NCBI GenBank assembly: GCA_963920665.1
Contig: OY987264.1
Coordinates: forward strand, 34,514,906-34,578,905
Origin: Straminergon stramineum
Taxonomy: Eukaryota > Streptophyta > Bryopsida > Hypnales > Calliergonaceae
DNA: 64,000 nucleotides
Direction: 5' to 3'
Within the stretch, counting starts at the first letter, position 1. Each line of letters opens with the position of its first letter. The notes beneath the pieces are model-generated. The model made no database searches and was not told where the DNA came from. It saw nothing but the letters and a program-made list of their open reading frames with translations. This document shows positions 28,511 through 57,327 of the stretch, in pieces. The position numbers and the translations under genes were made by a program.

Positions 28511-31500
28511 TTGCAGTCAATGACGCCTCGCACACAAGAAGACGCTGGAGAGCAATCCGAGCCCAAAACTTCTGCGGATGAAGACATCAATGTATCAAGT
28601 GACTCCGAAGACGAAGGGGGCAAGGAGGAGGACTTGGTAAGGGCTCAAAATATTAGAAATGGTGCTTCTCTTCCACCTAGGGCTTCTCAAGACTCGATGC
28701 TCAGTCGGAATACCAATTGGCCGGGTCACCTGATTGCAGGATACACTCGCAAACGCATGCGGCCGGAGTTTTCCTGTGAGAGTTCTGATACTGAATATAG
28801 CTCAGAGCCACAGACGTCTATGTCCATCGTTAGTCCCTTGTTTGAGGAATGTGATTGTATCGATAGGGTGGGTAGGCATGGAGAGGTCATCATTTTTCTG
28901 AGCTCGAATTCAGATAGTGATGTTGAGATTCTTGAGGGTTGACTGGACTTGATGTCATTTATAGTTTCAAAGTATGGTGTATGCTAGGTGTGACCTTAGA
29001 AGAAACCATATTTTGAACATCTTCAGAAATTTTATTACAAGCGATGTTTCAATTGGTCATACAAGTGATGCGTTGGGTCCATTGCCGTGGAGTTTGTCCT
29101 TGGTATATCTCATGTACATTTATTCCTATCCATGCCTATTTGGTCATCCTCTTTTGTGGTTGCCTTGGCAGATGGATGTCTCGCCTCTGAATGTAACTCA
29201 AGATGATAGAATTGTAGAAACACCAGGGACCAATGACACTACTCAACCGGAAATCGGAGTAGAGGAAGAAGGACATCCAATGGAGGAGAATATGCTAGAC
29301 GAAGAGGAGAAAGACTTGTTGGAGGATGACCTACGGAGGCTGCAAAAAGTAGACTCCGTCTCCACCATCAATGCGTTGAGGATGAAGCCGGAAAACTTGT
29401 TCTGATTTCCGATTCCTCTTTGCTGGCTTGTCTCTATGCCAATGGTGCGGCCGACTCTCTCATGTGACATGCAATTTCTTGAGCAAGAGTTTGCATGTGG
29501 ATACCGTGATGGGGCAACAGTCTTCTACGTTTCCACCACGAATGAGGCGGGCGAGACATCACAGTTCACGATGCAAGAGATGGATGAATGGGACCCTCTC
29601 TGGAAGGAAAAGAATGCTACATTCGAGGAGTAGGTGGACTCATAGCCTGCACTGAAATTCCTCAAGAACTTAAAGTTCTTCGTGTGCGACGGAAACCATC
29701 GATGCTTGGCCTAGATGAATGTCATCTCCAGAATATATTCCACAAATCTTGATTGGCACTTTGCAATGGACAGCATTGTTTTGGACACCAAAGGCAAAAT
29801 TGAGATTGTCATGCAGGTCATGTATGACATCAACAAGTGAAGTCACTATTCCCACTATCATTTCATTCTCAGTTTTATACCTGAATCTCATGTTCCGGTA
29901 AACTTGCAAAATGATGTACTCAAAGCGTGAAGTTCTGACTACTATGCAAATCTACAGAGGACTCCCACATGAAGACGAACTTCGTACATACTCTGTACCG
30001 GGTGCAAAAGTATGGCTTGCTACTGATGGAAAGGTTCAATGACATACTCAGGCCATCGGAGAAGAAAAAATGTGTGGCAATGCCATCGAGGAAGACATGG
30101 TACACCATGCTGGTTGAGGTCTTCACCTCATTCGTCTTCAGGGTGAGATAGACATTCACTATATACGTGAAGTACTCAATTGGAATCTTCTTTGGTGTTC
30201 TTGTGCTTCTTGCCCGTCCAATTTCCTCACAATATTCTCTTGGGACTCTACAGCAAGAGATTGCACAGGCAGCAAATGCGGCGCTTCGAAGATACCACGA
30301 GACAACACCAACTGATGAAAAGAGTGCTGAAGGAGCAGCTCATGCCATGAGGGTAGGGGCCAAGGACAAAAACATGAAGTAGTATGTGAAAATGATCAGG
30401 TTCTTGACAGTGGCCAATCCTGCTCATGGGGCGGGCTTCCTTGAAGGGGTGAGTCCTCATGTTCATGAAATCATGCCAATAAAGTATCTAGGTTCGGATT
30501 TGCCTGTATAAACATGACTCAATTCATTCGTGGTAATGCAGGTGGAGAGGCATTGGAGCTCCAACGAGGTGCCAAAGATGACACTCGAAAAATTGCAAAT
30601 GGTGGCCATGTGCAACACCATGGCAAAGCACAAGGTGAAGTTCTTGCAGTGGTGGAACTCCTCCATCCCATCTCGTGATGCGAGGAAGTTCCCAGCCAGG
30701 TTAGTCTCCGAAACACACCTTGGCCCTTTCTTGAACAAGTGTGTCTGGTTTGCGGAGGTAAGTGCCTCAGCCGACTTCATTTGTTGATTTCCACGGTTTT
30801 GTTATGACAATCGATTATAACATATGTCAATTTGTAATGTCCCTTTATTCTTCATGGTGGACTGAAACTAATTATTGGGATCAATTCGTGCAGCTCGAAG
30901 ATGCTGCAGTTGAGTACTTCAAGGCGGTCGTCAAACAAGACAACATCAAGATCGACATGAAGGTCTCGCTCCAACCGGAAACCTTGCAAGAGTACATCGA
31001 GGGATGGAGGAGGAAGATCTGGGACCAAGGATTCCATCCTTACTTGAAAGGAGGAAATTATTTCAAGAAGGGGGATTCCTTTACAAATTCTGAGGGGTCC
31101 AACTTGGTGGTTAGGAGGGTTCTCTACTGGTATGTTTCTAGACCTATCATATTGGAATCCGTTTGGCAACAACTCATTTCTTCAAATTCTGATGTGTGCA
31201 TGCTAAAACCCTTGAGAACAAACCCTTCTATTACATTGAATGTGATGGAATGTAGATGGTTGTGAAACACAATTGCATGTGTTAAGCTTGTAGACATTGT
31301 TGTAGTCATGTCTCTAATTGCCTAGAATGATTGATTCTTCTTTCCATAGCTATTTCAAGTATGAGCTCGAAGCGAAGGGTGCTATCGAAAGGAAAGACTT
31401 GCCTCCCTTCCTAGTGTCATAGTTGGACCGTAGCTCAGGGGACTGCATGTTCTCAGCAAACCAACTACGCACTTTTACCAGAGCTCACCTCAGTAGAGGA

Positions 31501-33216
31501 GCATGGTACTTGGACTATGCATCGGCATTCACTCATCCGTCCGAGGTGCAACTGCGAGCATCGTTGGATGGCAAAGGGGCCATAGACTTGAATGTGGACG
31601 AGTTTGCAGGAATAATAGACAAGCAAAAGAGGAAGGCCAGTGCGAGGAAGGAAGCCAATGACCGAAAAAAGGAGGCCTGTTTTCAAGTCCTTTTCACCGC
31701 CAAGGAGAAGAAGGAAGCAGAGAGACTTGCCAAGATGGCGAAGAAGGAGAAGGAGAAGGAGATGGAGAAAGAAGAAAAGGCCAAGGCCAAAGGGAAGAAG
31801 AAGGCCTCGAGTGATGGCCAAGTTCCAACATCCTCCACGGTGGATCAAGGCTCCGAGCTACAAGTCGGATCGCAAAGTGGAGTGAAGAGGAAGGCCACCC
31901 TCTCACAACTCAAGGAGGAGGTCATCACTCATGTGACAAAGGCAATCGTTCTCAGTGACGACGAGTTGGACACGTCTAAAAATCTCATTCTGAACATCTC
32001 CATTGACGACCTTGTGGATGACATGGAGTCCAAGACAAAGACATGGTACAAAGAAGTTGTGGACTTCTTAAACAAGGTATGCATGTCTCTTGGGATCTGA
32101 AAATACGGTCCTAAGTTCTCATTCAAATGGTTGTACTTTGAGTTCATTTACCGTCATTATAGGTTGCACTATTCCTTTGCAGGTGTCGGCGGGGAACCCA
32201 TCCATGTTCCATGGTGTCCCTAAAGCTAGGCCAAGGGTGGATGTCATATTCTTTGACTGCCTGGAGAACTTGCCTGTGCCTAGGTTGTCTTCTCTACCTC
32301 ATGAGGTGTCGGATTGGAATGAGGACGTGGGAGATGAAGCTTTGCAGTTAGCGTTCAGCTTTGCTTCCAATCATCTCTAAGACCACAGCTGCATCATAGT
32401 CTTCCATTCGTGGAGTGCCAAAGTAAAGTTGGATATTATAGGGTTGTGTGAAACATATGACATGGTCAAGAAGAAGGAGTGGATGGGGATGAACTGCATG
32501 CACTTGACCTCGGCCATTGACAAAACCAAGATGGTAAACTCCTTTCCATTTCTACAATTCCAAATGGCAATTTCACATGCATTACTTTCATCACATTGCT
32601 CATGATTCTACACCTATTTTGGATGATTGTGCAGACACAGAAATTTAAAATCACCTTGGTGGTGAAGGACTTGGGCACGAAAGGGAAATCCAATTTCTCT
32701 TTGAAGCGCACTACCACAATGGTGAAGGCTCATGTCGACATCGCACGTGATGACATGGTGATGAACTACACCCATCCAGATGACATAACCATGGATGACA
32801 GGAAGCCTTGGTGCGGGGCTCGCGAAAAAGATCCACGGTTCTTTCAAATCCTCCTTGAAGCTACCAGCGTCCTAGGAGATTTGATTCTTGACTGCACCGC
32901 ATCCATAGGTCAATATTCAATTATACTACTCTACCTCCCAATTGTAACCAAAGTACAATTTTAGTCTCTCATAATATATTTTTAAATTTCCATGCCTACA
33001 GGTGCATCCATTGTCGCTTGTCATGGCACGGGCCGCCACATTGTGGCCTTGGAGGAGAACAAGGATATCTTCAAGGCCATCTTCAAACCCATGTGGAAGT
33101 CCACTACGGCCAAGGAAGTGACGCCACAGCCTCCAACATTTGCAATTTCACAGGATCCCGATGCCATGCCCATGGTGCCTCACAAATTCATTCGGAAGGG
33201 AAAATTGAGTAAGTAA
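28511..33216 (+). pseudogene. Copy A: ParB-like / DNA-methyltransferase-like multi-exon gene
   Basis: Reconstructed from homology to copies B and C and from GT-AG sites. Exons are about 28,511-28,940 (link uncertain), 29,172-29,839, 29,957-30,142, 30,253-30,448, 30,541-30,761, 30,894-31,130, 31,349-32,075, 32,182-32,532, 32,635-32,908 and 33,001-33,214. Exon 2 carries MVRPTLSCD and FFVCDGNHR, resembling a ParB/sulfiredoxin-like domain. Exon 7 is K/E-rich and probably coiled coil. Exons 8-10 resemble a permuted amino-methyltransferase: VDVIFFDCLENL in the place of motif IV, then FFQILLEATSVLGDLILDC, TASIG and ACHGTGRHIVALE, like the motif-I strand and loop. In-frame stops include TGA 29,403, TAG 29,712 (Trp in copy C), TAG near 30,380, TAG near 31,421 and TAA 32,378 (Gln in copy B). 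Decayed, and not expressible as one protein. Confidence 0.6.
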
Positions 33217-33924
33217 GTAGGCACTTTTTTAATTCTCTTTGTGCATGATGCCTTCTACCTTTCAAACCTCTAACGTGGTGACATTTTTGTTTGCAGTCAT
33301 TGAAGATTGATGTCACCTGATCCAATGATGAAGAAACAGAGTCTTCTATGTAGTCCGGAGAAGACACATGAGCTTCTAGTCTATGCCAACCAGATGGCAA
33401 CAGCCTTTGTGGATTTTGGTTGCTCCAAACCAAAATGCCGTAAAGACACATACGCTCTAAATGTCTTATAGTTCATAGATGGGTCTACATCTGAGGGTAG
33501 AGAGTCTTCAAATTCGTCCAAGTCTTCCGAATCCGCGACCGACTGCACTACGACTTAGACCCATGAAATTGACATATCTCATGAGTCGTGCTATTGTGTA
33601 TTGTTTTCTATTATGATTGGATTTGTGTGTTTTATGGCTATATCTTGGACATGCGTTCTTCTAATTCTTATTTCCTACTATAAAAATTTCATCTATGTGA
33701 AATACATTTTGTTCTAGAAAACCCTTCAATCAAATAAAGGGGTAAGCGCTTTGAATTTTTCGAAATAAACTCTACATTCTATTCACTTTTTACTTTCTCA
33801 TGTCCATGGTCATAGTTCCTTCAGCCATTTTTTCTCGCAAAAAGATTTCCTACTCACAGGCTCATAGGCTCACATGCTAGCAACCCTGCTTCAACACCAT
33901 TATCCACAAGTATCATTTCCAGCC
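33217..33924. other. 3' flank of copy A
   Basis: A possible last exon of copy A begins near 33,299 after a TTTGCAG acceptor. Otherwise intergenic. Confidence 0.4.
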
Positions 33925-36900
33925 AATGAGGTCTTGTCGCTTCAAAATCCCACTCTATCGAATGATATCATTGCTACTTGTAAGGCCAGTTTTGCAGATT
34001 GATGTTGTTCGCCTCGAATCTGAGTTTGTTCATGGCTATAGAGAGGGTGACCGAATTATGGATGTGTCACTTCACAATGACAAAGGTATGAGCTAGAAGA
34101 TTACAGATGAGATATTGGGTACTTGGGATGCTCATTGGATGGCTGAGAATGAAGCTTTTGAGAAGGAGCTCCAAGGCCATGAGGATCGAGCTACGCTATC
34201 AGGCTTCATGTTTTTTGTGTGGGATGGCAACCACTGAATGATGGCCTGGACAAACTACATCAACAGGATGAGAGTTCACAACTATGATTGGCATTTCTGG
34301 GTGGATTCTATTATGCTAGAGACTAAGGGATCCATAGGAGTATTGATGCATGCAATGAACGACGTCAATAGGTAACTCTTCTTCAACTGCAATGATGCAA
34401 TAGAGAAGGTGTTCCTTTGAGGGGCGTTGCTGTAATTTATATTTTGATTATGAACTTTGCAGGTCCACCAAGAATGCCCATGTGAAGACCAATGTTGTCC
34501 ACCGTCTTCATAGGATCAACACGTACGGGTCTCTCAAGCTTCAAGATTTTAAAGATTTACTATCAGAAGATGAATATAAAGCTTGCGAGACTCAAACCAA
34601 ACCATATCCTTTGCACCCTCTTACTTCAGATATCTTTATACGATTTTTACATCAGGTACGTGTCTTTCAAGTGGTTCCATTTGTTGAAATTGTGAAGTCT
34701 TTGTTTATGTCAAATTCTATATTTTTTTGGAGTGTGTTGTATTCGATGTTTATAGTTTCTTTTTATCTTCTCACTAGCTCCTCAAAATATTTACTTCTAA
34801 TTTGGTCGATTGAAGGCTAAAAATTGATCTATTGCTATAATGGATGTTTGAATGATCTATGTTTTTTGGTGGTTGTAGAGTTCTATGCTATCGTTGCTAA
34901 AATTAGCCAATGTGATTTATCATTCACATGAACTTGACCTTGTTTTTTAATTTATTGTAGCAAGAGGTAGCTATGGCTGCAAAGGAGGCAACTAGACTTT
35001 ATGAAGAACGAACCCTTCCAATAGATAGGACATCAAGGGCCCTACAAGAGGCAATGACGGATGATGCTAATGCCAAGGTGAAATCCCTAAGAACTGAGTT
35101 CAATAAACTTAGCGTGGTTGGCAACCCCAAGCATTGACCTCGTTGGCTTGAAGAGGTTTGTTTTTTGCTACTTTGTTCTTTAACCATTTGAAGTTCTTAT
35201 TACGTTCCTTTTTTGATTGATTTTTGATTTTTTCTTTATTTCTCATCGTCTTCTTTTGTTTTTTCAGATCATGATTCATTGGAGCAAAAATGAAAGGCCA
35301 CATATGACGTTGGATAAGCTACAAGATATAGCTGCAAGCATTATGAAGCCAGTTTATAAGAGCCGATGGTTGACTTGGTGGAACTCAAGTGAAATGAATC
35401 GTGGAGCTCTTCGATTTCCCATTCCAATTGCAACAGAGGATAAACTCAAGTCATGGTTACCGAAGGCCACATTTTGGGCTGAGGTTATTTTTTGACAAAG
35501 TCCATTTAATTCAATGATTTCTATAGTCTTATTTACTCAAATTTAACTTTTAATGTACTATATTCCTTCCTTTCATGTAATGTTCCTTATTTTCTTTTGA
35601 CATTTCAGTAGTTATTGTTAAATTTCTCTAATTTAGTCCTTTACTTTTGACATACAGCTTGAGGAAGCGGTGTCAATATGGGTGAATGCGACTTTAGTGT
35701 TAGAGCGCATAGTTGTTGACTGGAATGCTGATGATTCTATCGACAAAATTGGTGACTATGTGGAACGCTATAGGATTATACTTTGGAATCATGCTTTCTA
35801 CTCTTTCTTTGTGAAGAGTGGAAAGTATTCCCGTCTCATACCATTTCTAGGGCAAGAGGGATGTGAGCAAGCAATGCAGCATTGTGTATATAGGTATTTA
35901 CATTTACTAGTTTGAATAATTTCACATGCAAATCTTGTGTTCAATTGCAAATATAGTGGTGTAAAGTGATTGTAGATATTTCCTTAATTGTTATATGTCA
36001 TTTACTATATTTTGGTGATTTCATTGTGTCTAATCTATTTTTTTGAATTCTGTTGTAGATACTTCTATCGGGAACTTGCTGCTAAGGGAGGAATCCAGAA
36101 ACGAGCAATACCAAAGCTACTTGGAGCTTGGACTGACAAGAACCTACCTTCTTGTTTTTTCACTACAACTCAAATTCATGGTTTTTCTCTTTCAAAGCTT
36201 ATGAATTGCCCATCGTACATTGAGTGTAGAAGGACTTATGCATTGGTGGAGGAGCAACGTACAAAAGACGAAGCTGCAGATTTTAAAGTTGTAGTAGAAG
36301 ATTTGTCTTCCGAAGAGGATGAAGAGGAGGTTGCTCAAGAAACTCCCGATTCTAAGAAGAAGTCAAGGTAGGGTCCAAAGAAGCAACTATCTCAGAAGAA
36401 AGTCCCTGTAAAGGTTACTAGATCTTGTTCAACACGTCAAAGTGCTGGATCTTCTGCTCGATCAGAAGTCCTTGCTTTAGGGTTTGAAGCTCCTCTTGGC
36501 ATTTCTACTGTGGCACCGGAGTACTTTGTTCCTTCTCAGTGGCAAGCAGCTAGCTCCCTTCGTTCTGAAACTATTGTTGGCAATGTAAGCAGATTGATTC
36601 TTCAGTACTCTATCCGAGATGCTATTGAACACATGGTGAAAACCCACATACAATCCCAAGAGCAAGTGAAGATTTTGGACTTTGCTAAGAAGGTACTTCC
36701 CAATTTAGTATTTATGTGTTACTAGTATTTAATCCATGATGTTTCTTTTGGTTTCTAACCTTTTCTATTGATATTGTATAGGCGGGTAGAGGACGTTCTC
36801 ATACCCTTGGAGGTGTGGCCAAGCATGAAGCGTGTCTAGACTTGATAATTGGAGACATGCCTAACGGCTTGCCTGTCCCCAATATTTCTCATCGTCCTCT

Positions 36901-38019
36901 TAGTGTTCCGTATTGGAACACTTATGATGATGAATTTGCAGAGTACATTTTCGAGTTTGCAAGTGGTTCACTTCAGGATGATGGGGCTATGATGTTTTTT
37001 TTGCTGGATAATCCAAAGATTCGGCATATGGTTGATAAGGATGCTAAGTTGCATGGGTTCAAAATGCAAACCGATTGGTGGGGCGTTAATGAGCTACGAA
37101 TGACATCTCACAAAGACATCAATTGCACAGTAATGATATATTTTGAGTTATTGTAAATGCCTTTAAAGTATGTTTGTTTATATTTTCTTTTTGTTAACAC
37201 TTTTTGTGCATGTTCAAACAAAACGCTTTTGGATTGTCTTGTATGTTCGAGTTATATTTAAAGGAACAACAATTCAATCCACTTTTTCTGTGGAGAAAAA
37301 CCAAGAGCTCTCTGAACTGTCTATAGATATATCTAGTAACAATCTGGACGCCTATGCCATTTTTCTTTATAAGCCATTTGTATATTTAAAAACAATTTTG
37401 TTCATTTACGATTGGCATTGGCCATGTGCAATCCAGTTCAAAATTGGCCCTAATTGTCTAATGTATTATTTGAAGTTCATTTAGTACTAGTCATGTAGAG
37501 ACCATTTGTAGATTCTATTTTTTTCCGACAATGGCTAGACATGTTATAAGTTGATATGCCCTCTTCTAGTTCACAATCTATTTCATATATTATATAGTTC
37601 ATGTTATGTAATATAGACTCATTTTTTGTGAAATTGTTTTAGGAGAAGGCTTGTTGTACAATTTCACAACTGCCACCACTCAGTTGATGAAAGACAGATT
37701 TCCATGGGGTGGATCACGTGAGAAAGATCCACTTTTCTTTCAAGTTCTAATCGAGAGTGTCACAACGTGCAATTTTTGATTTTTTTGGTTTACCTAGTCA
37801 AGCTAACCGGAAAATAAAGATATGTATCTGGAATTAGCTAAGGAACCATTTAGATCTGAATATGAAGCGGAAAATGAGATAGTGGAGAGATCTACTCAAT
37901 CCAGTTTCCAGGGAGTGAACGGATAGGAGTGGATGTCTGACCGGACAAGGATGGACCGGATACCTTAGACGAACCGGATCTGGAACGAGTCAGGATGAGG
38001 TGGCAGGGAGTCCAACGGC

Positions 38020-38027
38020 TATAAAAG
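38020..38027 (+). promoter_or_regulatory. TATA box of the 3.4-kb element
   Basis: TATAAAAG, 268 bp upstream of the element's ORF start, in a context (ACGGC before, AGCTAGAG after) that suits a core promoter. No competing TATA box is close by. Confidence 0.55.
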
Positions 38028-38287
38028 AGCTAGAGCTACCTAGATCAAACTCTTTCTCATTTTCGTTTGCCCAGCCCTATCTGTGCTCTACGTTTGCATC
38101 TACACCTGTCGTTTAGTTTCCCGTGACAGTCTTTTGTGCTAGTGTCCGTTGCGAGACTTGTGGTCTTTGAGCGTTCGAGCTTTAATTACTGGTTGAGATC
38201 AGGAAGCGAAAGCGAGAACGAGACGTGCGGCTAGGAGAAACAGTGAGGGAGTATCGAAAAGGGTCCCGAGCACACTCACCCGTGTCC

Positions 38288-39958
38288 ATGCCGCAGCTTA
38301 GGAGGAGTAGAGGCGGACAGGCCAGTATACCACCAGCGGAGGTGAAGCTCCGAAAGGTAGTTCTAGTTGTTCCCTCCACTGAACCAGCCAAATCCCAACT
38401 CATGGAAGATTTAAACTCCATGGGTTGCCTAGGGTTTGTGGAGAAACCCTGGGGCTTTAAAGAAGAGTCCATAGTCAAAGAACTCTTGGGCAAGTTGTCC
38501 AATGAGTTTGACAACACTTTGAGAGCCATTCCACATCTGTGGATGGAAAATGTGTGGAGAGCAGTCTATAGTTTCCGGGTAGGAGGGCTAGGAATGGCAA
38601 GCCGGAAGGATGAGTTCTGTTGCGGAAAGTTCGAGGGAGCGGTCAACCGGAAAGACGAATACGCGGTGGATGACTACATCGATGAGTGGCAGCGCCGGTT
38701 GCTAAAGTTCTTAGTTCCGGTCCTTCATCCGGAAAAACCAACGAGGGTGACTATCTCCCTCGCCAACACTATTTTCGGCACTCTGAGAAGAGACCGGAAA
38801 GTTGACTGGGCTCGGATCATTTCCGAGCTGGTCACCCAACTCGTAGGAAGAGTGGGGAAGAGTAGGGCCACTCCGGTGTGTCCCTATCTCATGCACCTCT
38901 ATCATTCTCACCAACTCCTGAGCGCACTAGAAGAGAAGAGGTGGAAGGCTCAGGAAACTCTCTTTAGATACGGAGAATCGGAAACGGATGAGGAGATGGA
39001 ATCCGGTTCCGATCCCGAGGAGAACAGTGAGTCAAAGGAAGAAGAGGCGCCAATGCTGCTCATCAAACGGCAAAAGACGACCTCTCCCAACAAGCGGGGG
39101 ACGCCGCCCGCTTGCGACACCTCGGCCCCAAAGGAGAAGCCGGAGGTCAAGAAGACGGTGTCAGAAGAATCAGATCCCGAGGATTCGTTCAAAGCGCTTG
39201 TAAAAACCTTATGCGACATACGAATAGATTGGGAGTTGAAGAGGAAGATCTTGGTAGCAATCGGGAGGATGGTGGGAGCAGCACCCGACAGAGAGCTACC
39301 GGAAAAGGTGGCGGGTTGTATCTTTGATCCGGTCGAGGCCCGAAAGCAAGAAGCAGAGATCCGCCGGTTACAAGAAGAGGTGGATCAGATGAAGACAAAG
39401 ATCCTAGTACACAAGGAGAACTTCGCAGCTACCAAGTCTATTGCAAAGGATGCTTGGCAAATGATGGAGCAAGTGAAGGCCACGTTCGGGGAGATCGGAA
39501 CGGCCCTCACCAAAGCAAAGTTGTTTGACAAGCGGGTGCACGAGGAGAAGAAGCTATCCGGTTCCCAGATGGTGAGGATTCTCAACGACTTTGCCAAGCA
39601 AGTAGAAGCGGCAATGAAGGAGGCATGGAAGGCAACAGACCGGATGGAGGAGAGTACCCGGATACTGTCGGGAGCAACTTGCTCTCGCGGTATTCGACTC
39701 TCGGATATCTCTCTCCCGGATTCGTTCCCGGAGGTGATAGCAGGCGAGGGGAAGGATGCGACCCCCAAGTCCAAGAGAACGACCCAGGCCGGCATGCCTA
39801 GAACCGCCATTGACTTGGACTCACCACCCGCGTCCACAGGAGGCAATCCAGTTCCTCGACCTCAAGAAGTAGAGAGGAGTCGGAATCTAAACGATGTTTT
39901 CGAGCAGATGGATCCGGGAGCGGACAGCGCGACCATCAGATCGCGAATAGAGACTTAG
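38288..39958 (+). CDS. Intact 556-aa ORF inside the 3.4-kb element
   Basis: Opens at ATG 38,288 (the frame is open further upstream) and ends TAG 39,956-39,958. It has no internal stops, in contrast to almost everything else in the window. Residues about 90-210 hold a globular part with DDYIDEWQRRLLKFLVPVL and LANTIFGTLRRDRKVDWARI; the latter resembles the VDW motif of P1-P3. An acidic K/E/S-rich segment follows, then a helical, coiled-coil-like region (EIRRLQEEVDQMKTK). There is no zinc knuckle, protease, reverse transcriptase or transposase motif. It may be a gag-like or plant-transposon-type accessory protein; that is inference from position and shape. Intactness suggests the insertion is young compared with the gene it disrupts. 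Confidence 0.7.
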   Translation: MPQLRRSRGGQASIPPAEVKLRKVVLVVPSTEPAKSQLMEDLNSMGCLGFVEKPWGFKEESIVKELLGKLSNEFDNTLRAIPHLWMENVWRAVYSFRVGGLGMASRKDEFCCGKFEGAVNRKDEYAVDDYIDEWQRRLLKFLVPVLHPEKPTRVTISLANTIFGTLRRDRKVDWARIISELVTQLVGRVGKSRATPVCPYLMHLYHSHQLLSALEEKRWKAQETLFRYGESETDEEMESGSDPEENSESKEEEAPMLLIKRQKTTSPNKRGTPPACDTSAPKEKPEVKKTVSEESDPEDSFKALVKTLCDIRIDWELKRKILVAIGRMVGAAPDRELPEKVAGCIFDPVEARKQEAEIRRLQEEVDQMKTKILVHKENFAATKSIAKDAWQMMEQVKATFGEIGTALTKAKLFDKRVHEEKKLSGSQMVRILNDFAKQVEAAMKEAWKATDRMEESTRILSGATCSRGIRLSDISLPDSFPEVIAGEGKDATPKSKRTTQAGMPRTAIDLDSPPASTGGNPVPRPQEVERSRNLNDVFEQMDPGADSATIRSRIET

Positions 39959-41805
39959 GATGTATAGAGTAGGTAGAGTAGGAATGGATATGGAAATTGT
40001 TCCGATCTAGTTGGAAGTAGGTAGGACCGGAAAGTCTGATCGAGATGGCGGCGGAACTTTCGCGGATTTTCCCGTCCATTTGTAACTTTGTGAAGTGTAT
40101 ATAGTCAGCGCCCGCGAGGGACATTGGGAGTCTTCTTTTTGCAATTTCTATTGTACCTTTGTATGTGCTCTGTTGTTATGTGTGTCTCCCAAGCTTGGCA
40201 GGTTTGTATGATGTGGAGTTAGGAAGGCGTAAGGCAGATTTGTGATTAGATTTCTTCCCTTAGTGTGATAGTTTCCGATCCTTAGCGTGTGTGCAGGTTG
40301 TGTAAGTGTGGGGAGTGTATTTCAGTGCCTCAGCAAGATCTAGGGTTTTGAAGTTCCGGGTGAGATAGCTGCTGTTAGGCTAGGCAGATAGGGAGGGTAT
40401 CCTTAGTCGCGCTAAAACTCCTAGACGGGGAGTCCGGTTGAGTGTCCGATCTTCTGAAGAGGTCTCACCACCTTAGTTGGTAAATGGAATGATCCTAGTT
40501 ACTATTGGAACGGACGAGTACACTTGTAACCACCTAGCTTCGCACGGGTAGGAATTGGCATTGAGGTCGTTGTAGTAAGAACGGATCGTACGGGAGATCT
40601 CTATGTGACCTGCATTCCGGATTGATGTCGGGAGTGTTGTGAGGGATCAAACCGGATTCGAGTTAGTTAGGAGAGGAAGGGAGAGAAAGGGAGAGAATAG
40701 TGGATCTTCAACCACTATAATCCGCAAAAAGAGTGGTGGGCCTACCACTTAGAAACCTAAGCGGCGAACCCTCTGATGGTCCAACAGAGGCAAAACTAAA
40801 CCAGAAGAGAGTTGAGAAGGTACAGGAACCAGTTGGAGCAGATTGGTTCAGAGCAGTACTAGGACTAGAATTGTTTAGGTCCTGGAGATTGGGAGAATTG
40901 GATTAACCGGAGGATTAAAGAATCGGATGGGAAGTAATCCGGTCCTAATCCTCTTGGTGGTTGGTTGTTTCCGGTTCTAGATCTAGGACCGGAAAGGAAG
41001 TTTTAGAGGGTGAGAGAGCTTACTCGCCCAAATCAAGTAAATACTTCACAGAATCTTGTAGGTTCGATCTTTAGAGTCACTTCGTTATGCTCTAGAGTGA
41101 CTTTTGTGAGCATAATAGGGAATTTACTTATCCTGTGCTGCGACAGAGAGCTTTTCCAAACCTAATGATGTGGTATTGGATTGCACAGCTTCTATAGGTC
41201 TAAACTTCTCTCCATTGCTAGATGTCTATTTTATACTTGTATAAGATTTATATTTTTATGTATCATTTATGCCTTACAAAGCATTTTGTTTTGCCACAAG
41301 GGCTAGCATCCATGCTTGTCAAAGGAGTGGCCGACACATCAATCATTGTGTTGGAGTCTAATACAGAGATCTTCATGCACATCCTTGCTCCAATGATTGA
41401 CTCACCTGCAAAGGTTGAACTAGTCCAACCAAAGCGGAAACGTCAAGTTTCATCAAGCAAAGAGGATCCTGATAGTCCAGTGAAGAAGGTGGCCCAAAAT
41501 CGCTTGGGTTTGTAAGTCTAACTATATTGCACTCTATCAAGTTTATTACAATTGGTAATCTTCATGTCAACCTTATAATCCTACAAGTTTTAATTCTTTT
41601 TTTAAATTTCACGTTTTGGTGTAGGTTGGTGAAGTACCTTATTAGCCCTCCTAAGTCTTGGTCTTTGCCTTATTATGCTGAGTCATTCGCTACAATGAAT
41701 GTTGAGATGACATCATTTTCCACCTGTGAAGAAACTAGCTCTAGTCATCATGTTCTCCAGTTTTTAGATGTAGAAGCTATGGAGGATAATATGGATAGTG
41801 ACTAG

Positions 41806-42459
41806 AGCCTTAGCTCTATAGGCATGAACTCTTCTGGCTAGGATTCAAATGTTTCATTTCACACTCAATTTTTATTTTCATCTCATCTTATATTTTATTT
41901 TATTTCATGGATTGTGAGCTTCTTTATCAATTTAAAAATATCCATGGTATTCAATTTGTAATGACTAATGACAATTATGAATTGCTTCTTACAAATCCAT
42001 GTTTAATATTCTTCATATAATCATATTCCATCTTGGTTCTTTTATTTCTTTTTTCATTTCAAACCCTCTTCATGTGCTTCTTTGGAACCTCATTGGTAAT
42101 CAAGAGGCTCACTCAACTTATTGGGTTTAGTTGTTGTTTTATTATGAGCCTTCTTAGAAATTGACTTTCAATTCTTTGAAGATGTTGGTTTATTAATGAG
42201 TTTCAGAATATGTACATTTTAGATCCAATGACAAATGAAGGACCATGTTTTGTTCTCTTCTCTTTGAACCTCCCCTATACTAAGCATCGTTTCTATTTTC
42301 TCACTTGTAAAAATCTGTATAGCTCGCTAAATGTCTTCTAGAAATAGAAGAGGCTAATAGGTCCATATGATTTCTATCTTGGTGGTATTGAAGAGGCTCT
42401 TTAGAACTGACAAGGTGTTGTACTGATTTTGTTCTTTCTATGTTTGCTTTTTAATTTAA
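41806..42459. other. Intergenic, 3' of copy B
   Basis: AT-rich, no gene. Confidence 0.5.
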
Positions 42460-43010
42460 TAACCTACAAATAAGAAGATTGAATTCCAAATTGACCCTTG
42501 GGACATATTTATAGGATTTCACAGACATGACCTACATTAATTATGCATGTAAATTGTGGCAAGAGAGCACATTAACAAAATTAATGTATGAATTGAAGAA
42601 GATTGATTCTCAACTAGTCAAATTGGGATCAAATAAAAAAAATGGGAAACAAATTTATTTGCTTATTAATTTAATGATTTATGAATACAAAAATTGGATT
42701 CTACATTGACCCCATATATATTTCCTAGGGTTTGGCCATGACCTACATTATATATGCATATAGAATGTAGCAATAAATCATATCAATATTCAATAAGATT
42801 AATTAATCCATAAAGTGGATTAATTCTTTGGAAAAAAATGGAGAACAATTAAAAAATTGTAAAGCAAATTTGTTTGCTTCATCCTTTTATTACGGACTAG
42901 ATATTCCAAAAAATTGGATTTAGGATTTCACCCCTCTATGTTTACAGGAATTTGCCATAATCTAGATTACTTATGTATACAAAATGCAACAATGTGGATT
43001 ACATCAACAA
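42460..43010 (+). repeat. ~210-bp degenerate tandem repeat, three copies
   Basis: Copies near 42,470, 42,675 and 42,888 share, in order, AAATTGGATT-like, a GACCC block, a CATGACCTACATTA-like block (AATCTAGATTACT in the third) and TATGCATAtaaAATG-like words. Divergence is high, so the repeat is old. Confidence 0.6.
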
Positions 43011-43489
43011 ATAACTTTTTAGAGGTATTATTTTAACACTGTATAAAAACTAAAGATGGACACAATTGCCAACCACAATGATGCATGGTAGTCAATTCAC
43101 GTTTGTCTTTAGCTTGTGTGCCCATCCCACACAAACTACCTTATATTAGTTTATATTAGCAATCCCAATTGTTATGGGATATTACCTTATGTTGGAAACC
43201 TCTCAAGTCATGCGCAATCAGTTATGTAGAATTTACATGTACAAGTTATGAATAGAAGAAAGGGGAAGTTTTGAATTATGTTTTCTACCTCAAAAATGTT
43301 TCTGCAAATTGTAGAACAATCTTATCCTACAATTTCATTTCATAAAAAAAAATCTTGAATAGATTATAATATTAGTATAGAATATATTGGATTAGAAAAT
43401 ATTTATTTAGACCATTTTTTAACTTGTATTGGGTTCTATTTTTAAAATCTAGTCATTTGTTTCTAAATTGTCATGATTTCTATATCTCA

Positions 43490-45375
43490 CTAAGAGCCTC
43501 CTCGGAACCGAGGAGGCCTTTAGACTATACTTGTTCTTCAATATCATCTCCCTATGAGCCTCTTTGGAATCCTTAAGAGGCTCCTTGGAATCCCTTAGAG
43601 CCTCTTTGGAATCCCTAAGAGGCTCCTTGGAATCCCTTAGAGCCTCCTTGGAATCCAAAGAGGCCTTTAGGCCACCTTTGCTCTCTATCATTGTCTCCCT
43701 AGGTCCTAGGAGCCTCTTCGGAACCAAGGAGGCTCTTTGGAACCCCTTGAGATTGTTGTATGTACCCTAATATTTAAACACTCAATCCACCCTAATCATT
43801 ATATTAGAGTATTTATAAGGACTTAACTAATTCCAACAAAATGAATGTAAATTTCGGACTTCACTAATCTAAATCATCCCATTCATGCTTGTAATTGTTG
43901 TTTCCTATGAGTCTCCTCGGAACCGAGGAGGCCTTTAGACTTTGTATGCTTCTCAATATCATCTCCCTATGAGCCTCTTTGGAATCCCTTAGAGCCTCCT
44001 CAAAATCCAAAGAGGCCTTTAGTGTCACAACCCTCATCACAAGGTGTGCCCGTGCCACCTTGGTGAGCAAGGGGGACATTGGGGGTGACTCCCCAAGCCT
44101 TGCAAGAGATGAGGTGAGGGGGACTAGGAGTCCCGAGCGATCAGAGCAATGTACCGCTCTGATCCGGACGAATTTGGGGGCGTGTGATACATGCTTAGAA
44201 AGGTCTTGAGAAGACGCTTCTAGCCGTGCAAAGAACGCGTGATTTGGACTTGCGAGTCAAAAGTTATGGGCGTTCAAAGTTGGGGGTGTCCCGGTCGCGC
44301 CGGGAGTGCCCTGGCCGCGCCGGGAGTGTCCCGAATCTTTGGAGGGCGATATCTTTGCGAGTACTTGTCCGAATGGAGAAAGTGAGTAGTCCATCGGCAT
44401 CTACGCGTCGCGTAGATATCGAAAATGGGGTCGCATGTGCGTTTTGGATCCCGGACCGCCAAGATATGCCGGGTGGAAGTTCGGAAGTCCCAAAGTAGTG
44501 CGAATCGGGAGAAACGGGGTGATCTTCCAAAACCAAAGGGTGTTTGGGAGTCCCTCTTGACATACAAGAGGGGGGGCTACTGAATCCCGCAGAGAGTACT
44601 ATGAGGAGGGGTGGTCTCCCTCCTCACTCCCGGATGGTGCCATGGTGAGCCTAAGTGGCCCCGGGTGGTGAGGTTAGTGTTGGAGCCTCACCACCACTTG
44701 TGTGTTACCATGGAGTGCTTGTGCACTCCTTGATACCGGTTGGGTGGTGTCCCACTTCACACTAGGCTATGGTGTGAGTCCCGTTTGGTGAGTCCCGATT
44801 AGTGAGTCCCGAAATGAGTTGGGTTGGGCCTAGTGGGGAGTTGGGTCCCATTCAAGGGCGGTTAGCACCGGTGGGAGTAGTGCCTCACCGAGTGCTTGGA
44901 CATCAATGGAAGTTCCGCCCCATGTCATGCCCGGTGTCTTGTGGGAGTTAAGTATTGGAAGGAAAGGATTGGGAGTCACGGAGGAATGGGGAACCCCGTG
45001 ACTTGAGTTGGAACCTAACATTGTGGATGCGTGGCATGTGTAGTGTTAGGAAAGCGTGAAACTTAGTGGCACTAAGGTGTTAAGTGTTTGGAAAGTGAGC
45101 TTAAGGTGGTAAGTGTTACTAAGGGGCGCGACATTTAGGCCATCTTTGCTCTCTATCATTGTCTCCCTAGGCTCTTTGGAACTCCTTGAGACTATTGTAT
45201 GTACTCTAATATTTAAATCCTCAAACCTACCTAATTATTATAAAAGAGTATTTATAAAGACTTAGCTAATCCCCAAAAAATGAATGTAAATTTCGGACTT
45301 CACCAATTTAAATCACCCCATTCATGCTTGTAATTGTTGTTTCCTATGAGCCTCCTCAGATCCAAAGAGGCCCAT
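43490..45375. repeat. GAGGCTC/GAGCCTC repeat region, about 400-bp units
   Basis: A core of about six tandem 21-bp units (GAGCCTCTTTGGAATCCCTTA type) at 43,555-43,665 sits in a larger unit of about 370-400 bp. That unit recurs at about 43,740-44,020 and, beyond the inserted element, at 45,134-45,375. The larger unit includes the near-palindrome CCTCCTCGGAACCGAGGAGG (about 43,497 and 43,914) and a CCATTCATGCTTGTAATTGT block. Open frames across the 21-bp array are Leu-Glu-Ser repeats with no coding support. Confidence 0.8.
44023..45133 (+). mobile_element. 1,111-bp solo-LTR-like insertion, TTTAG target duplication
   Basis: Begins TGTCACAACCCTCATC and ends AAGGGGCGCGACA, flanked by TTTAG at 44,018-44,022 and 45,134-45,138. 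A paralogous empty site exists in the window: the repeat at about 43,666-43,690 reads GAGGCCTTTAGGCCACC without interruption. There is no ORF of note inside and no internal terminal repeat, so a solo LTR is the simplest reading. Its ends match those of the 3,388-bp element (TGTCACAAC..GCGACA). Inside are a short CG-rich palindrome CTACGCGTCGCGTAG (about 44,400) and a duplicated CGCGCCGGGAGTG word. Confidence 0.85.
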
Positions 45376-45757
45376 AGGACCCCATAGGAGACTAATATGT
45401 GGACATTACAAAGACAACAATTTACATTTCTTGTATCCAAATCAATTGAATGCACCTTATCTATTTATCAATTAGATGCTTTGTGGTGCCATTGACTTCA
45501 TTTAATCTATAAAATTCAAGGATGGAATTTTTTTTCATCTACTAACTTTCATCTACATTCATTCATCATCATCTTCATCCATCCAAAGATGGATGAAATA
45601 AATGACTTCAATCCATATATTGATTTTTTTTCCAAAACATAATTTCTAAGTGCAAAGTTAATGATAATTACAAAATTCCTAAAACATAATAAATAAAAAG
45701 TTTACTACTCAAATGCCACTATTCATTGCTTAACACTCATTCCTCCTTGCTCATACT
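45376..45757. other. Intergenic between repeat region and copy C
   Basis: AT-rich, no gene. Confidence 0.5.
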
Positions 45758-48700
45758 TTAGCAACCCTGGATGTAGCAATTTGGACCCTCATTGATTTCA
45801 TTGTCAATGATGTCTACAATAGAGACATTGAGCACTAATTCCTCCGATGTCACGTCATCATCATCACCTATGGCAATCACTTGTGTGCCTTGGGTGACCA
45901 TCTCTTCGGTGAACTCCGGCAATACGGCCTTCCTCTTCATCCCACTGTGTGCTTTGGCTTCCATTTGTGAGCCTTGATCTATTGTCGATGATGCAGGAAC
46001 AACACCTTCTCCATCTTCTTTCTTCTTCCCTTTTGTCTTGGCCTTCTCCTCCTTCTCCTTCTCCTTTTCCTTCTCCTTCTCTGCTAACTTGGCCACATGC
46101 TCTGCCTCCTTCTTGTCTTTGTTTTCCAAAGCAACTTGGATCCGAGCTGCTTTCCTCCTGTCATTGGTTTCCTTCCTTGCAATGGCCCTCTCCCTTTGTT
46201 TATTAGTTAACCCTGCGAACTTGTCCACATCCATGTCAATAGTTCCAATTCCCTCCAAAGACTTTCGCAATTCAACCTCTAACGGATGCGTGTACGAGAT
46301 GGGACAATCAATGTACCATCCGCCCCTACTGAAGTGAGCTGTGGTGTATGTTTGGAGTTGATTCGTAGTATACATGCAATCTGCGAAACTACAGTTGAGA
46401 AAATTCGAGAGGAATGGAGGCAAGTCCTTTTTTGCGATTGCCCCTTTTGCCTCAAGCTCATGCTTGAAGTACCTACAAAATAAGAAAGCATGACATCCAT
46501 GATCAATAGCAAAATATCAAGGAAGGCAAGACTACTATTTCAACCTCTAAACTTCATGCAGTACTACACGAGAACATTAATTTTAACTTAACAGAAATTT
46601 AGCTCAAAACATTACATTGAATACTTTAGAGGGAATAAAACTGGAGGGTCCAATAAGTATTTGACAAAACACTGTCGGATCCAACAGTGGTTTGAGAGGT
46701 ACCTCAAGGACCCCCCCTTTCTAGTCCTTCCTTTCATTGTCTATTTTCTAGTTTAAATAATAAGGGTCAATAGAAATCTAGACATTATAGAATTGAAAGT
46801 ATTGAAATATTGTAAATCAAATTATTAGAAAATAATTTGAGCATACCGAAAAAGCACCCTTCGCACTGCCTACTTTGATCCCTCATAAGTCATGAAATTG
46901 TTACTTTTTTTGAAGTAGTTTGTTCCTCTGAGGTGGGCCATGAAGCCTTGATCCCAAATCTTCCTCCTCCAACCTTCTATATATTCAGCCAAGGTCTCAG
47001 GTTGGAGTGGAACATTCATGTTGATGTTGATTTGGTCTTGCCTCACCACGTTCTCAAAGTATTCTCTAGCTGCGTCTTCTATCTGTAAATAACCTAAATC
47101 AATTAACATTCAAAATATACATATTGTTGTATAAAAACTATATAAATATAGAATTTCATTAATTGAAAATTCTGAAGCTCTTAAAATCAAAATTATTACA
47201 AATTAAAATGATTACAAATCAAATACTTACCCCGGCATACCAAACGCATCTGTTTTAGGAAGGGCCCAACAATGTCTCGGATACGGGCCTTGGCGGAAAT
47301 CGTCTAGCATCACGTGAAGGTATCGAGGAGTTCCACCACTTGAGAAACTCGGTCTTGTGAAATGGAGTGGTGTTGCATGTGGCCACCATTTGAAGTTTCT
47401 CAAGAATCATCTCAGGGACCTCATTTGCACTCCAATGTTTCTCAACCTACTCTCAAAAGATATACAATGTCAATTATAATTTGAACTCCATATGAGACTA
47501 TTGTCATATATTCATAATGCATGCAGGAAACTTACTTCTTCCAAAAATTCTGGCTTATGTGCGGGATTAGCCACTGCAACCAACTTCATCATCTTCACAT
47601 TAAGTTTGTCTGTTTTCTCTTTTGCTCCACCTCTCATAGCATGTGCAAGTCCCTCAGGAGTTTTCTCTTGCTCTGGGGTGATCTCATTGTACTTTCGTAG
47701 TGCTGCATCCATTGCTTGAGCTATCTCTTGCTACATACATCCAATAAATTAAAAAGATTCAAATAATTGAGGAAGAGAAAAGCCAAAATAAAATACACCA
47801 AGCACATTCAAATCAATGTCAAAATAGAATAGAATACCTATGTTCAAATAGAAGCCACAAAAAATTAGGGTGATCTTCATCCAAAAAATTCTCACCCGGA
47901 AAAGAAATGTTGTGAAGACCTCTAGTGGCATAGAGTACCAAGTCTTTCTGGTTTTGGGGGCTCTACACCATTTGAGCTCTGATGGCCTCAACATCTCGTT
48001 GAAGCGCTCAATGGGAAGTAGTCCATACTTTTGAACCCGGTATAAAGTATGGACTAGATTGGTCTTCACATGGGACTCTTCGGTAGACCTACAATTTATA
48101 GAGATAATATTGTTTAGGGTTTTGTAAGTCATATGCATCATTTTCACGTGACATTCTAAATTGAATTAAATGCCAAAGTCACAAAGCGTGCATATATTAC
48201 TTACTTATTTATGTCATGCATGACATGCATGACCAACTCTGTCTTCCCCTTCATATCTAAAATAATAGAGTCCACGGCATAGTGCCAATCCCATTCATTC
48301 GAGTGTTTCCTGGTGATATGAGTCATCCACGAAAGGAGCCTATGATTACCATCACAAACGAAGAACTTTAGATTTTTCAAGAACCTCAACTCGGGAATGG
48401 CCTCAAGTTGGGCAATGAAAATGGCATTCCTCTTTCTCCACAATGGATCCCACCCTTCCATCTCCTCCTCCGTGAATTCAGAACTCTCTCCGGCTTCGTT
48501 TGTGGTGGTGACATAAAAAACTGCAGCTCCATCACGGTATCCTTTATTGAACTCTTGCTCAAGCAACTTCAAATCACATGTAAGTGTTGGCCTCACCATA
48601 GGCATAGCCACCATTCGACATAGTGGGATTTGCAATCGAAACATATGGTCAGGCTTCATCCTCAGAGAAGCAATGGTCTTCATGGAATCTACCTTGTGAT

Positions 48701-49488
48701 ATGAGCGCAAGTCGTCCTCATCCAAGTCTTTGTCTTCTTCCTCCAAGACATCTACCACCACATCCTCTTCTATGAACTCCCCTTCATCTTCACCTTCAAT
48801 GTCCGGTTGAGGGGTGTCATTGTTGATTTGAGTCTCCATGATGGTCTCATCTTGTGACAACAATGTGGGAGACACATCCATCTGCTTGTATAACAATAAA
48901 AGATAATCAACATTCACAAACTTAAGAAAAGAAATCCATTTGAAATTGAAAGATGCACATTCCTAATTTCTAACATGTATTCAAGGATTACAAATGCAAT
49001 AACAAAGTACAATTGAACCATTAATAAATTCAAAATAGGTAGAAAAATCATATGAATTAGACATGCAAGGGCATAAATCAATATGTTTACACAATGACTC
49101 CAAGTGAATGGAATCAATCAATGTCTACATCACCCTCCGAGTTGGAACTGAGGTGAATGATGACAACCTCTTGTCTACCTTGAATCGTGCTACGATGACA
49201 TTGACATGTGTCTTCCCACATTGGCCCATCCACAGTAATGGATACTTGACTCTTTGAGCTATACTTTGTCTCAGAACTCTCAAGAGACATTACGGTTGTC
49301 TTGCATCTAGCAAACTCTAGTATTCTAGCAAGATGCTCACGGCATCTATGTGCATCAGGGTCACTCACCCGACTCATACATGAGACCTCGAAAGCATCTG
49401 TAGCACGGTCAGCAGCATCCATGATATCATTGAAACTTACCACATCTTCCCCATCAGCTTCTTCTTTGGAGTCATTGGAGACCTCCAT
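45758..49488 (-). pseudogene. Copy C: ParB-like gene lacking the methyltransferase part
   Basis: Minus-strand paralogue of copy A with the same exon order: first exon 49,488-49,114 (SSxTKYSS, EVVIIHLSSNSEGDVD), ParB-like exon 48,887-48,201 starting MDVSP, then about 48,090-47,890, 47,735-47,535, 47,460-47,240, 47,095-46,865 and 46,470-45,758. The ParB-like exon is uninterrupted here (CDGNHRLLSWMTHI) and is the best copy for domain searches. A stop, TAA 47,255-47,257, occurs in the WWNSS exon where copy A has TTG (Leu). The last exon has the K/E-rich region and ends at 45,758; no methyltransferase-like exons follow to the left, only repeats. It is truncated, or a shorter natural form. Confidence 0.6.
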
Positions 49489-52400
49489 GGCTCTGTTTAC
49501 TGGTGTGAAAGGCTGAGATGGTCCCGCTTCATGAGCAATTGGGAGAGTTTGAGGTTGAAGAGCGGTTGTGGTTGTACTCCCTCTACATCCTCCCTATTTT
49601 TAAATCAACACATTTCACACAAATAATGGGCCAAAACATAAATTAGAAAGTCAATCTCAAATCTACCAAAATGAAACCTCAACATCTTCACACAAGAAAG
49701 TAATGAAATTTTGATTAAAAAATGGCCCCAATTGAGTGCTTGTAGAAGTACTCATTAGAATTTGAAACAGTCATAAACTTCAATATGAACTTTGTGTGAG
49801 GAAATCTTAGAAATAAAAACATCAAACATTCTTATCATTTGAAAGATCTTACAATGTACAATATGCAAAGATGTCAACATACTATAAGATGAAATGACCA
49901 CTCATGTACAGGTTTGAAAGATCTAGCATTCAAAATTTACAAAACAATGCATATGATTCTACTACCATGAAACCTCCTAAAATGTACACTTTAGAAAGAT
50001 CAATACGTTTTCTCATATTGAACAGAAAATCAAGTTCAATAGTAAAATATCTAACGGTCAATATTAAATAACCAAAACAAACGTAAGAGATCTTTGACAT
50101 TCATCATTAAGATCTTGGAAATTGGAGAATTAAAATTTAATTATGAAGAATGGCCAATCCCACATGTTTGGGATCACAGGGTCAAGATTGTATAACAAAG
50201 AAAACAAATCCTAGATCTTGGGGGTCAAGTAGATGCTTGACATTGGACCGTCAAATCCAACACTATAGTGTCAAGCATCTGCTCGATCTCCAACATCCAT
50301 AACATCAATTACACTATGATTTGGGGTTTCTTAGTTAGAAAATTGCTACACTAAATCTTTTTACGTTTTAAAACTGAAGCTAACAAAATATATTTGTTTT
50401 AACTCTTTTGCATTAAAGAAATAAAAAATGTAAATATCTATCATATACAACTAGATTTGGGGGGTCTAGGAAGGGCTCGTGGATACTCTGTCGAATCCGA
50501 CACTAATCTGGTGTATCTTTACTGGACCCCTAGTTCTTCTTCTCGTTTTCCAAAATAATCTCTCTCTCTTAAACCTAAAAATATCTTTCATTACATCTGA
50601 CTAGGACAAGCAAAATGACCAAATTAATTGAGATAAGGAAGTTGTCAAGAATCCTTATTAATTGACGAGGTGAAGTCGGGAACTCATGAAATTAACTCTT
50701 GAAATGTCCAATGAGGAACTTGATTCAAGTCCCTTGATGGGATAAAGTCGAGTATTCAAGTGAAAACAATATTAGTTGGAAGCTAGTTCTAAACATGCTT
50801 TGAAATCACTGAATGCTGCCAAAACTGGGCATTAGCACCAGAGTCAGACTAGTTTGAGGGGGTCCTTCTATCTCTGCCGGTGAAGGCGTCGAATCCGACA
50901 GTGTAGAAAGAACAGGTAGCTCGACCTACGGGATTTGGATCGAGGACTTTCCAAAGGAAAAGATCAACAAGTGGCTACAATCTTGATTCTCAGAAATGGA
51001 CTCAGAGTCAGACATGATGAATGCTCCAAGCCCTCGGTAAATCCTAGCACAATTGGTGCTCAGAATATTGGACACCAAAACATGATTGCTGGTCCGAAGA
51101 GGAGCACAGCCGCACGGGGAGGGGAGCTTTCAAAACATTTCTAGTAAAAGCTTAAACCAACAGTGAGGAGGATTATCATTTTTCTAAAATCAAAATTGGA
51201 CAAGTAACTACTGAGCACAAGCAAAGCAAATTTCAAAAGAAGCAAATGAAGCCGCTAACGATTCCAACCAACTAGGCGACGAACTCCATTCTCACAAACA
51301 ATTCTCCCAAGTTGCACATTCAGCAACAATCAACGAACACCGTAAAATCTAACTACAAAGGAAATGCAAACCTACTGCACAGGAGGAGTTGAAGTTGCTG
51401 TCTCTTGTTGACGAGCCTCCTCCAAGTTTGCATCGTCTCTCACCCGCCGCCTAGTATTCCGTATCATCCTGGCTTCCTGCTCAGCAAGATTTCAATGCAA
51501 TCAAAAGGTGGAGCAACCTCAGATCGATTGAAAGATTATGAAGAATTGACGAGGTAGACTGGACGGTGGAGAGGATAAGCAAAGCTAGAGACTGCAAGAA
51601 TTTAGCAATCTACTCGACCATGCAGGAACCGCCAATTCGATAATCCAGTTGACTATGCAGGGACTGCCACACCACCTGATCTGCCCAAGCAAGAACAGTA
51701 CTTGATCCAGCGATGTTACTAATTTTGACAGGATGTGCTGGCGATTGCCCTTTACCATTGTTACTAATTTCAATTGGATGCATTGTCGATTGCCCTCCAT
51801 TGGTTTTATTGGCCAAGAATTATTTATTCTAAATCATTAAAATTATTGAAATTTTGATGAAGGACCCATTTAGTATGGAAGCTTGCTATACCGACGAAAT
51901 CTAAAGCACTACTATAGCTATGAATGATGACGTAGAAAGTACATTTTTATCAAAAGAAGGTCAAACAGAGTTGTAGACCATTCAATCATTATACACAGGT
52001 GTATTGGAAATTTTACTATTTATTATCTATGTGTTTGGTAAATGCAGGGATTTTATTTCCATTTCTTGTAGCCTTGTAGGGATTGTCTAAGGAGATAATC
52101 AATAATAGGTGAAGGTATTTACATCCTTGGCAATGAATGAAATTCGCAATCTATAGGTGAAGTTTCATTGATTCATATGAATGGAGGATTAATCATCCAA
52201 ATTGATCAAAACCACCCCAAGATTGGTAGCAAATTAGAGATGTCATCCACTTATAAGCAAGAATATTAAGCCAAATATTCCCTTTAAAAAGATTAATCGC
52301 TTATTAGCAAAAACTGTTTGCTAATCAAACCCCAAGGTGAAAGGTAATTCTTAGGGGTGATATTACTCGACATATTGCCGAGACCAAACACATTGGTCAT

Positions 52401-57160: not shown

Positions 57161-57327
57161 CTATGCATAAGGGGATTTCAATTTTTGATGGTGTCACACC
57201 ATATAATGCAAAGATAAACTTATGTTGCTACATATATTTTATTTTATTTTCCAATGATGTAGAATAAAGAAAGAACTTCATTTTATAATTTGAAATTCTC
57301 TGAGCTATTCTTCATAGGTATCCAGAA

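Follow-up and report, generated by a model that had tools for sequence, protein, structure and literature searches.

A DNA transposon family of the moss Straminergon stramineum carries an accessory gene for a methyltransferase-like protein

Several described mobile elements carry genes that bear on DNA modification or silencing. In Arabidopsis, VANC proteins cause methylation loss over VANDAL elements, and their targets are often tandem repeats (PMC5735166). Fungal DNA transposons carry TET/JBP enzymes that are thought to aid escape from silencing (PMC12730594), and for retrotransposons carrying DNMT- or Dam-type methyltransferases, Ka/Ks values below 0.2 have been reported in Klebsormidium (PMC5890265). 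Here we describe a large DNA transposon family of the moss Straminergon stramineum, recognized from a 64,000-nucleotide stretch of DNA (the window; assembly GCA_963920665.1, contig OY987264.1, positions 34,514,906 to 34,578,905, forward strand) that contains three related multi-exon genes, A and B on the plus strand and C on the minus strand. These genes are almost certainly copies of the accessory gene encoded on the plus strand of the element. The first-pass annotation of the window had described a locally amplified plant gene cluster, a description that gives way to a genome-wide transposon accessory gene in view of dispersal, target duplications and linkage to a transposase.

The element resembles each of the known systems in part. 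As in the VANDAL elements of Arabidopsis, a non-transposase gene accompanies repeated short noncoding motifs; unlike the accessory protein, for which anti-silencing is one possible role, VANC comes with no mention of a methyltransferase-like domain in the available text (PMC5735166, PMC10398659). The fungal TET/JBP elements are likewise DNA transposons with a gene of the DNA-modification kind, but involve a different enzyme family (dioxygenases), fungi and other transposon superfamilies (PMC12730594). The DNMT/Dam retrotransposons are also selfish elements with a methyltransferase under purifying selection, but they are retroelements with C5 or Dam-type enzymes, and the available account mentions no ParB-like part (PMC5890265). 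Phage fusions of ParB-CTPase and N6N4 methyltransferase domains place the same predicted domain pair in one mobile-DNA protein, but are borne by phages or prophages, and the plant domain is only putatively ParB (PMC12704722). Finally, Mutator-like elements share the 8-11 bp range of target duplications, a SWIM-like segment and a further open reading frame (ORF), but the Pfam MULE model does not match the transposase found here, and the present ends are short and imperfect (PMC6446971).

The genome searched comprises 326 Mb in 59 contigs. The first exon of copy C returned 805 first-look candidates, and all 150 that were scored matched at E <= 1.3e-84, spread over eleven large contigs; this is a dispersed genome-wide repeat, not a local gene cluster. 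Both element ends were in hand for four copies, c5_18485, c3_41451, c9_6840 and c2_45445 (17,834, 19,931, 19,201 and 17,131 bp, nested insertions included), and each of the four is flanked by exact 10-bp target duplications. Comparison between copies gave sharp termini with small between-copy differences, 5' CAACGACGCTAGCGTGCGAGC and 3' CTCACAGGCTCGCACGCTAGCAACCCTG. Imperfect inverted repeats, scored without a shuffled control, were seen at the ends of three of the four copies, starting past the first six or seven bases, and in c2 the best inverted end match, likewise without such a control, sits further inside. The first 100 bp of an element contain 7-8 inward-facing GAGC and the last 100 bp contain 4-5, compared with 0.21-0.25 per 100 bp and strand inside the element. 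In total, these copies represent a DNA transposon family of about 17-20 kb with at least two genes, and the element has been mobile in the past. Further diverged accessory-gene subfamilies (L040-L053) are present in the genome, many of them with open exons; for one such exon, 19 of 150 scored matches (self included) were at least 77% identical over near-full length, and the remaining ones were mostly 38-61% identical.

Minus-strand transposase-like frames were found in each of the four copies known from end to end. We take one region of the encoded protein to be of the C2HC/HNHP type, further blocks to be DDE-like and a CxC..CxH segment to be SWIM-like; 145 relatives reach E <= 0.001 in the set of proteins searched. 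No Pfam DDE family was matched among the 33 relatives scanned (the nearest was zf-Tnp_2, E 0.76, in one of them), so the assignment to a transposase superfamily is provisional. The SWIM profile matched two transposase copies below the cut-off (E 0.11 and 0.37) and not a third, with CxC..CxH visible. Considering the 10-bp duplications, which fall within the 8-11 bp range of Mutator-like elements, the element is provisionally of Mutator-like type, with a length exceptional for such elements.

Linkage between the two genes was counted from the best 150 ParB-like exons (the first exon of the accessory gene) and the best 150 transposase matches. An opposite-strand transposase match lies upstream within 25 kb of 90 of the 150 exons (median distance 8.7 kb), compared with 4 for same-strand upstream, 3 for opposite-strand downstream and 4 for same-strand downstream arrangements, and with a mean of 0.97 and a maximum of 5 in 300 draws of random placement. 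Because each list holds the best 150, this count is a lower bound. When exons were instead ranked by likeness to P0001, a Ceratodon purpureus relative described below, 62 of 150 had a transposase in place (controls 3, 7 and 2). Families near A and C show the link, as do a few others. In addition, 66 of the 150 ParB-like exons (controls 1 and 0), and 24 of the 27 top-ranked ones, are followed on their own strand by a listed methyltransferase exon at a distance of 1-6 kb; the two kinds of exon have therefore been kept together across diverged subfamilies. Local amplification of a host gene family, perhaps a horizontally acquired one, would agree with three copies lying within 21 kb of the window, but is very improbable in light of the target duplications, the conserved ends, the eleven-contig dispersal and the transposase linkage.

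In copy c7_17169 all nine modelled exons are open and all eight introns have GT..AG splice sites; the modelled accessory gene has nine or more exons and a protein of about 1,000 amino acids. An N-terminal DGNHR domain is followed in this protein by a middle part made of helices and by a linker rich in K and E, and the C-terminus is formed by a permuted amino-methyltransferase-like domain. Ratios of nonsynonymous to synonymous substitution rates (dN/dS) were calculated between element copies by the Nei-Gojobori method. Over the whole gene they were 0.09-0.13 in five diverged pairs (c7/c5, c7/c3_12553, c7/c6, c2/c5 and c2/c6), two of which have dS above 2; by part, in the same pairs, the ParB-like exon came to 0.05-0.09, exons 2-5 to 0.04-0.22, exon 6 to 0.10-0.15 and the methyltransferase exons to 0.10-0.16. 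The ratio was 0.09 for c2/winA and was not computable for c7/c2 and c7/winA. The accessory protein is under strong purifying selection, with dN/dS of about 0.1 between diverged copies, and the accessory gene therefore works for the element. A functionless passenger made of host gene fragments captured by the transposon (Pack-MULE type) has the precedent that Mutator-like elements tend to take up such fragments (PMC6446971), but these ratios and the identical gene arrangement across diverged subfamilies leave it hardly credible.

The permuted order of N6/N4 amino-methyltransferases, already noticed in A and B by the first-pass annotation, held up in comparisons with PF01555, CcrM and a phage methylase as well as in the motif order itself: a motif IV-like strand stands before the motif I-like LDCTASIG, followed by VALEE or IVLES. 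PF01555 (N6_N4_Mtase) was matched by eight of nine family members at E <= 1 (best 9.9e-10); P0001 scored 30.4 bits over residues 903-1119 against a cut-off of 26.7, the open copy c7 alone stayed under the cut-off with 21.9 bits, and the joined motif X/I piece of copy A gave E 0.042. A nine-row family profile could be aligned with CcrM from one end to the other (E 2.1e-6, over profile positions 17-230) and partially with DpnA (E 6.9e-6), and the order IV ... X, I, II is alignable to CcrM, a solved member. L043 was omitted from alignment A6 (motif X exon incomplete) and L053 from A7 (near L048). The hhalign comparison with a Gordonia phage methylase gave 92%, and tblastn of P0001 against phages gave a best E of 7e-5 over residues 1035-1122. 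With regard to a relationship with VANC proteins, a DUF1985 match in one of the nine family members (E 0.15) was not significant. The C-terminal domain very probably has a methyltransferase fold.

Active N6-adenine and N4-cytosine methyltransferases have a motif IV of the form [DNS]PP[YFW]. This form was absent from all 17 motif IV readings (nine copies, P0001, copy B and six diverged loci), which show DCQENL, NCQENL, DCLENL, DYPENL, DxP[EDN]GL, DVLDGL and DTPFDS (DTPF in P0001) where CcrM has DPPYNL. Because motif IV is altered in every one of the 17, catalysis is doubtful, and the domain, judged from its motifs, is probably inactive or altered in its chemistry. The alternative is an active N6-adenine or N4-cytosine DNA methyltransferase that would mark element ends or host DNA, for example timing transposition or evading silencing. 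This would fit the whole-domain relationship to CcrM and DpnA, a first Asp of motif IV in 16 and a third-position Pro in 8 of the 17 readings, the DTPF of the Ceratodon relative, the strong constraint on the protein, and the DIRS and other retrotransposons on record with DNA methyltransferases (PMC5890265); set against the missing [DNS]PP[YFW] and a motif I that reads DCTASTG in c7, or similar, where CcrM has DPFFGVG, it appears unlikely.

A DGxHR-like motif marks ParB and sulfiredoxin, and all 10 diverse members of the family that were compared have DGNH, 9 of them as DGNHR. With this motif, the topology and weak structure matches taken together, the N-terminal domain may well have a ParB/sulfiredoxin fold. 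A search of PDB sequences with the ParB-like exon returned only unrelated matches (best E 0.44), hhalign against N15 SopB gave 0.5%, and a PHROG ParB family was matched in one of five members at E 0.069. By tblastn, the ParB-like domain had no match in phages and two weak ones in plasmids (best E 0.2). Single-sequence folding of P0001 produced an unusable model (predicted local distance difference test score, pLDDT, 35.5).

Among the scored candidates (7,984 and 7,996) from a set of 5.8 billion proteins, the single relative was the hypothetical protein M758_1G295400 of Ceratodon purpureus (P0001; E 9.8e-115), and the expectation that no named plant family would match was thus borne out within that set. 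Its identity is 31% across 92-94% of the query, or 33% when fully aligned, and its domain order is the same; it differs in its PF01555 score above the cut-off and in its DTPF motif. A search with a two-row alignment found nothing beyond P0001 among proteins of 0.55-1.75 times the query length, a filter under which single-exon fragments could not appear. Pattern-based scans matched 137 IMG/VR and 51 GTDB stretches, none of which passed tblastn; no close relative bearing on the horizontal origin first suggested emerged from these scans or from the phage and plasmid searches. The neighbours of three phage methylases bore no annotated ParB name, the proteins themselves not having been scanned for ParB, and a fourth phage record carries no annotation. 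A descent of these genes from a large DNA virus or some phage-like invader would have a precedent in the phage fusions of ParB and N6N4 methyltransferase domains (PMC12704722), but this origin is most improbable given the lack of any relative in the IMG/VR, phage and GTDB searches, the precise 10-bp duplications, and the lack of a noticed viral hallmark among the c5 frames of at least 70 amino acids, not all of which were searched. In the literature searched, which included few subscription papers and no bioRxiv, no description of a transposon with the ParB-methyltransferase combination was found; each part of the idea has precedent, and the combination appears undescribed there.

Taken as a whole, the evidence is likely to reflect an accessory gene of a DNA transposon that encodes a DNA-acting auxiliary protein. 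Such a protein would serve the element by acting on DNA, either to assist transposition or to counter silencing. Its methyltransferase-like domain would chiefly recognize or bind DNA or S-adenosylmethionine instead of methylating, with the GAGC arrays at the termini as candidate binding sites. A regulatory or anti-silencing role, suggested by analogy, is plausible but short of probable, and a role as transposition co-factor is somewhat less so and rather unlikely. More specific, and quite improbable, is a plant-nucleus counterpart of the phage ParB-methylase fusions, in which a ParB-type nucleotide-switched clamp joined to a methyltransferase-derived DNA reader would load on the terminal GAGC arrays, spread, and shield the element from silencing or organize transposition.

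Several results weigh against the transposon-accessory reading or its parts. PF02195 matched none of the 5 and none of the 10 members scanned, and no support for the ParB-like exon came from Pfam, NCBIfam, PDB sequences or hhalign, so that the methyltransferase half of the domain pair first proposed stands at profile level, through PF01555, and the ParB/sulfiredoxin half only as a motif and fold-level hints. The Pfam MULE DDE profile has no match in the element ORF either. No listed transposase is in place for 60 of the 150 best ParB-like exons, and one stands beside only 8 of the 34 listed exons most like P0001. Closer pairs of copies gave higher dN/dS, 0.23 for c9/c5 and 0.80 for c7/c4_238, as copies are expected to drift after insertion; in several pairs dS is saturated or could not be computed. 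Purifying selection would also fit an active methylase equally well.

If the transposon-accessory reading holds, a DNA transposon with a methyltransferase-derived protein under strong selection is a new pairing for the short list of selfish elements with DNA-modification-type proteins. To our knowledge, transposon counter-silencing outside flowering plants has been little studied, and the open copy, defined ends and terminal repeat arrays make the element directly testable. As a caution, multi-exon genes of this kind are not to be annotated as plant genes or as recent horizontal transfers.

Within the window, the relationship of A, B and C, as first proposed, was confirmed piece by piece in protein alignments with the open paralogue c7_17169 (identity 83-89% for C, 44-66% for A and 27-45% for B; one extra piece of C, at 49%, runs through an intron). 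All three copies are damaged (Table 1). The expected DGNHR-type exon is present in each, open in C and interrupted by stops in A and B. Copy A has seven in-frame stops across its nine modelled exons, copy B is disrupted by stops and a nested insertion, and copy C ends after exon 6, with the methyltransferase-like exons and the far element end gone; its reach to about 57327 and its transposase remnant had been missed by the first-pass annotation. The 5' terminus of copy A was not found in the window, where one match with three mismatches inside copy C is at chance level, and its 3' flank has no exact upstream copy in the window, only one with a mismatch.

Table 1. Features of the three accessory-gene copies in the window
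Feature	Positions	Strand	Details
Copy A small acidic ORF, upstream of accessory gene	28520..28939	+	ends VIIFLSSNSDSDVEILEG; similar ORF in copy C and element c5
Copy A accessory gene	29172..33153	+	coordinates transferred by alignment to copy c5, plus translation
Copy A exons 1-5	29172-29836, 29950-30142, 30254-30448, 30542-30757, 30894-31129	+	alignment to c5; DGNH(R) in exon 1, with stops
Copy A exons 6-9	31350-32076, 32183-32533, 32635-32908, 33002-33153	+	end of last exon modelled, no signal
Copy A permuted methyltransferase region	32183-33153	+	
Copy A methyltransferase-like motif X/I part	32635..33153	+	EKDPRFFQILLEAT..LDCTASIGASIVAC..HIVALEEN
Copy A element 3' terminus	33789..33888	+	..GCTCACATGCTAGCAACCCTG; copy A ends at 33888
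Copy B (divergent subfamily) ParB/Srx-like exon with DGNH	33902..34372	+	stop-broken; an open relative lies at C5:6102490-6103100 (L049)
Copy B middle exons plus motif IV-like exon	34449..37128; motif IV-like exon 36782-37128	+	DLIIGDMPNGLPVP
Copy B permuted methyltransferase region	36734-37128 + 37643-37757 / 41151-41513	+	
Copy B exon preceding nested insertion	37643..37757	+	GGSREKDPLFFQVLIES
Nested insertion within copy B	37758..41150		TG..CA ends, GAGAG on both sides
Copy B motif I exon and next exon	41151..41513	+	VVLDCTASIG; IIVLESNTEIF
Copy C truncated transposon copy	45766..57327	-	93% identity to element c5
Copy C exons 2-6 (helical middle, K/E-rich segment)	45767..48090	-	methyltransferase-like exons missing
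Copy C ParB/Srx-like exon 1 with DGNH(R)	48204..48881	-	open
Copy C small acidic ORF upstream of exon 1	49117..49488	-	ends VVIIHLSSNSEGDVDID
Copy C divergently transcribed transposase remnant	54983..57141	+	two frames

Stretches like VIIHLSSDSE or PIIELSSESE, noted for copies A and C and for element c5 (L029, L009), occur both in the small acidic ORF ahead of the accessory gene and in the transposase; we take these, like the VIIFLSSNSDSDVEILEG end in copy A, to resemble SUMO-interaction motifs. The insertion in copy B has no long terminal repeats by self-comparison and holds a long coding stretch at about 38288-39958, read by eye and presumably gag-like.

Elsewhere in the window, two long sets of minus-strand reading frames (4900-7797 and 58387-61677) resemble BED/hAT-type transposases. 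The 5.8 kb at 18239-24047, with several reading frames, are 94.8% identical to DNA upstream of c3_12553 on contig C3 (joined positions 3156-9078), a recent repeat. A tandem unit of about 355 bp occurs at 1398-2121 and again 26 kb away at 27772-28433, with 85-91% identity. Finally, 21-bp tandem repeats at 43490-44022 are duplicated 352-415 bp apart, and an adjoining 209-bp repeat (43730) recurs at 45169.

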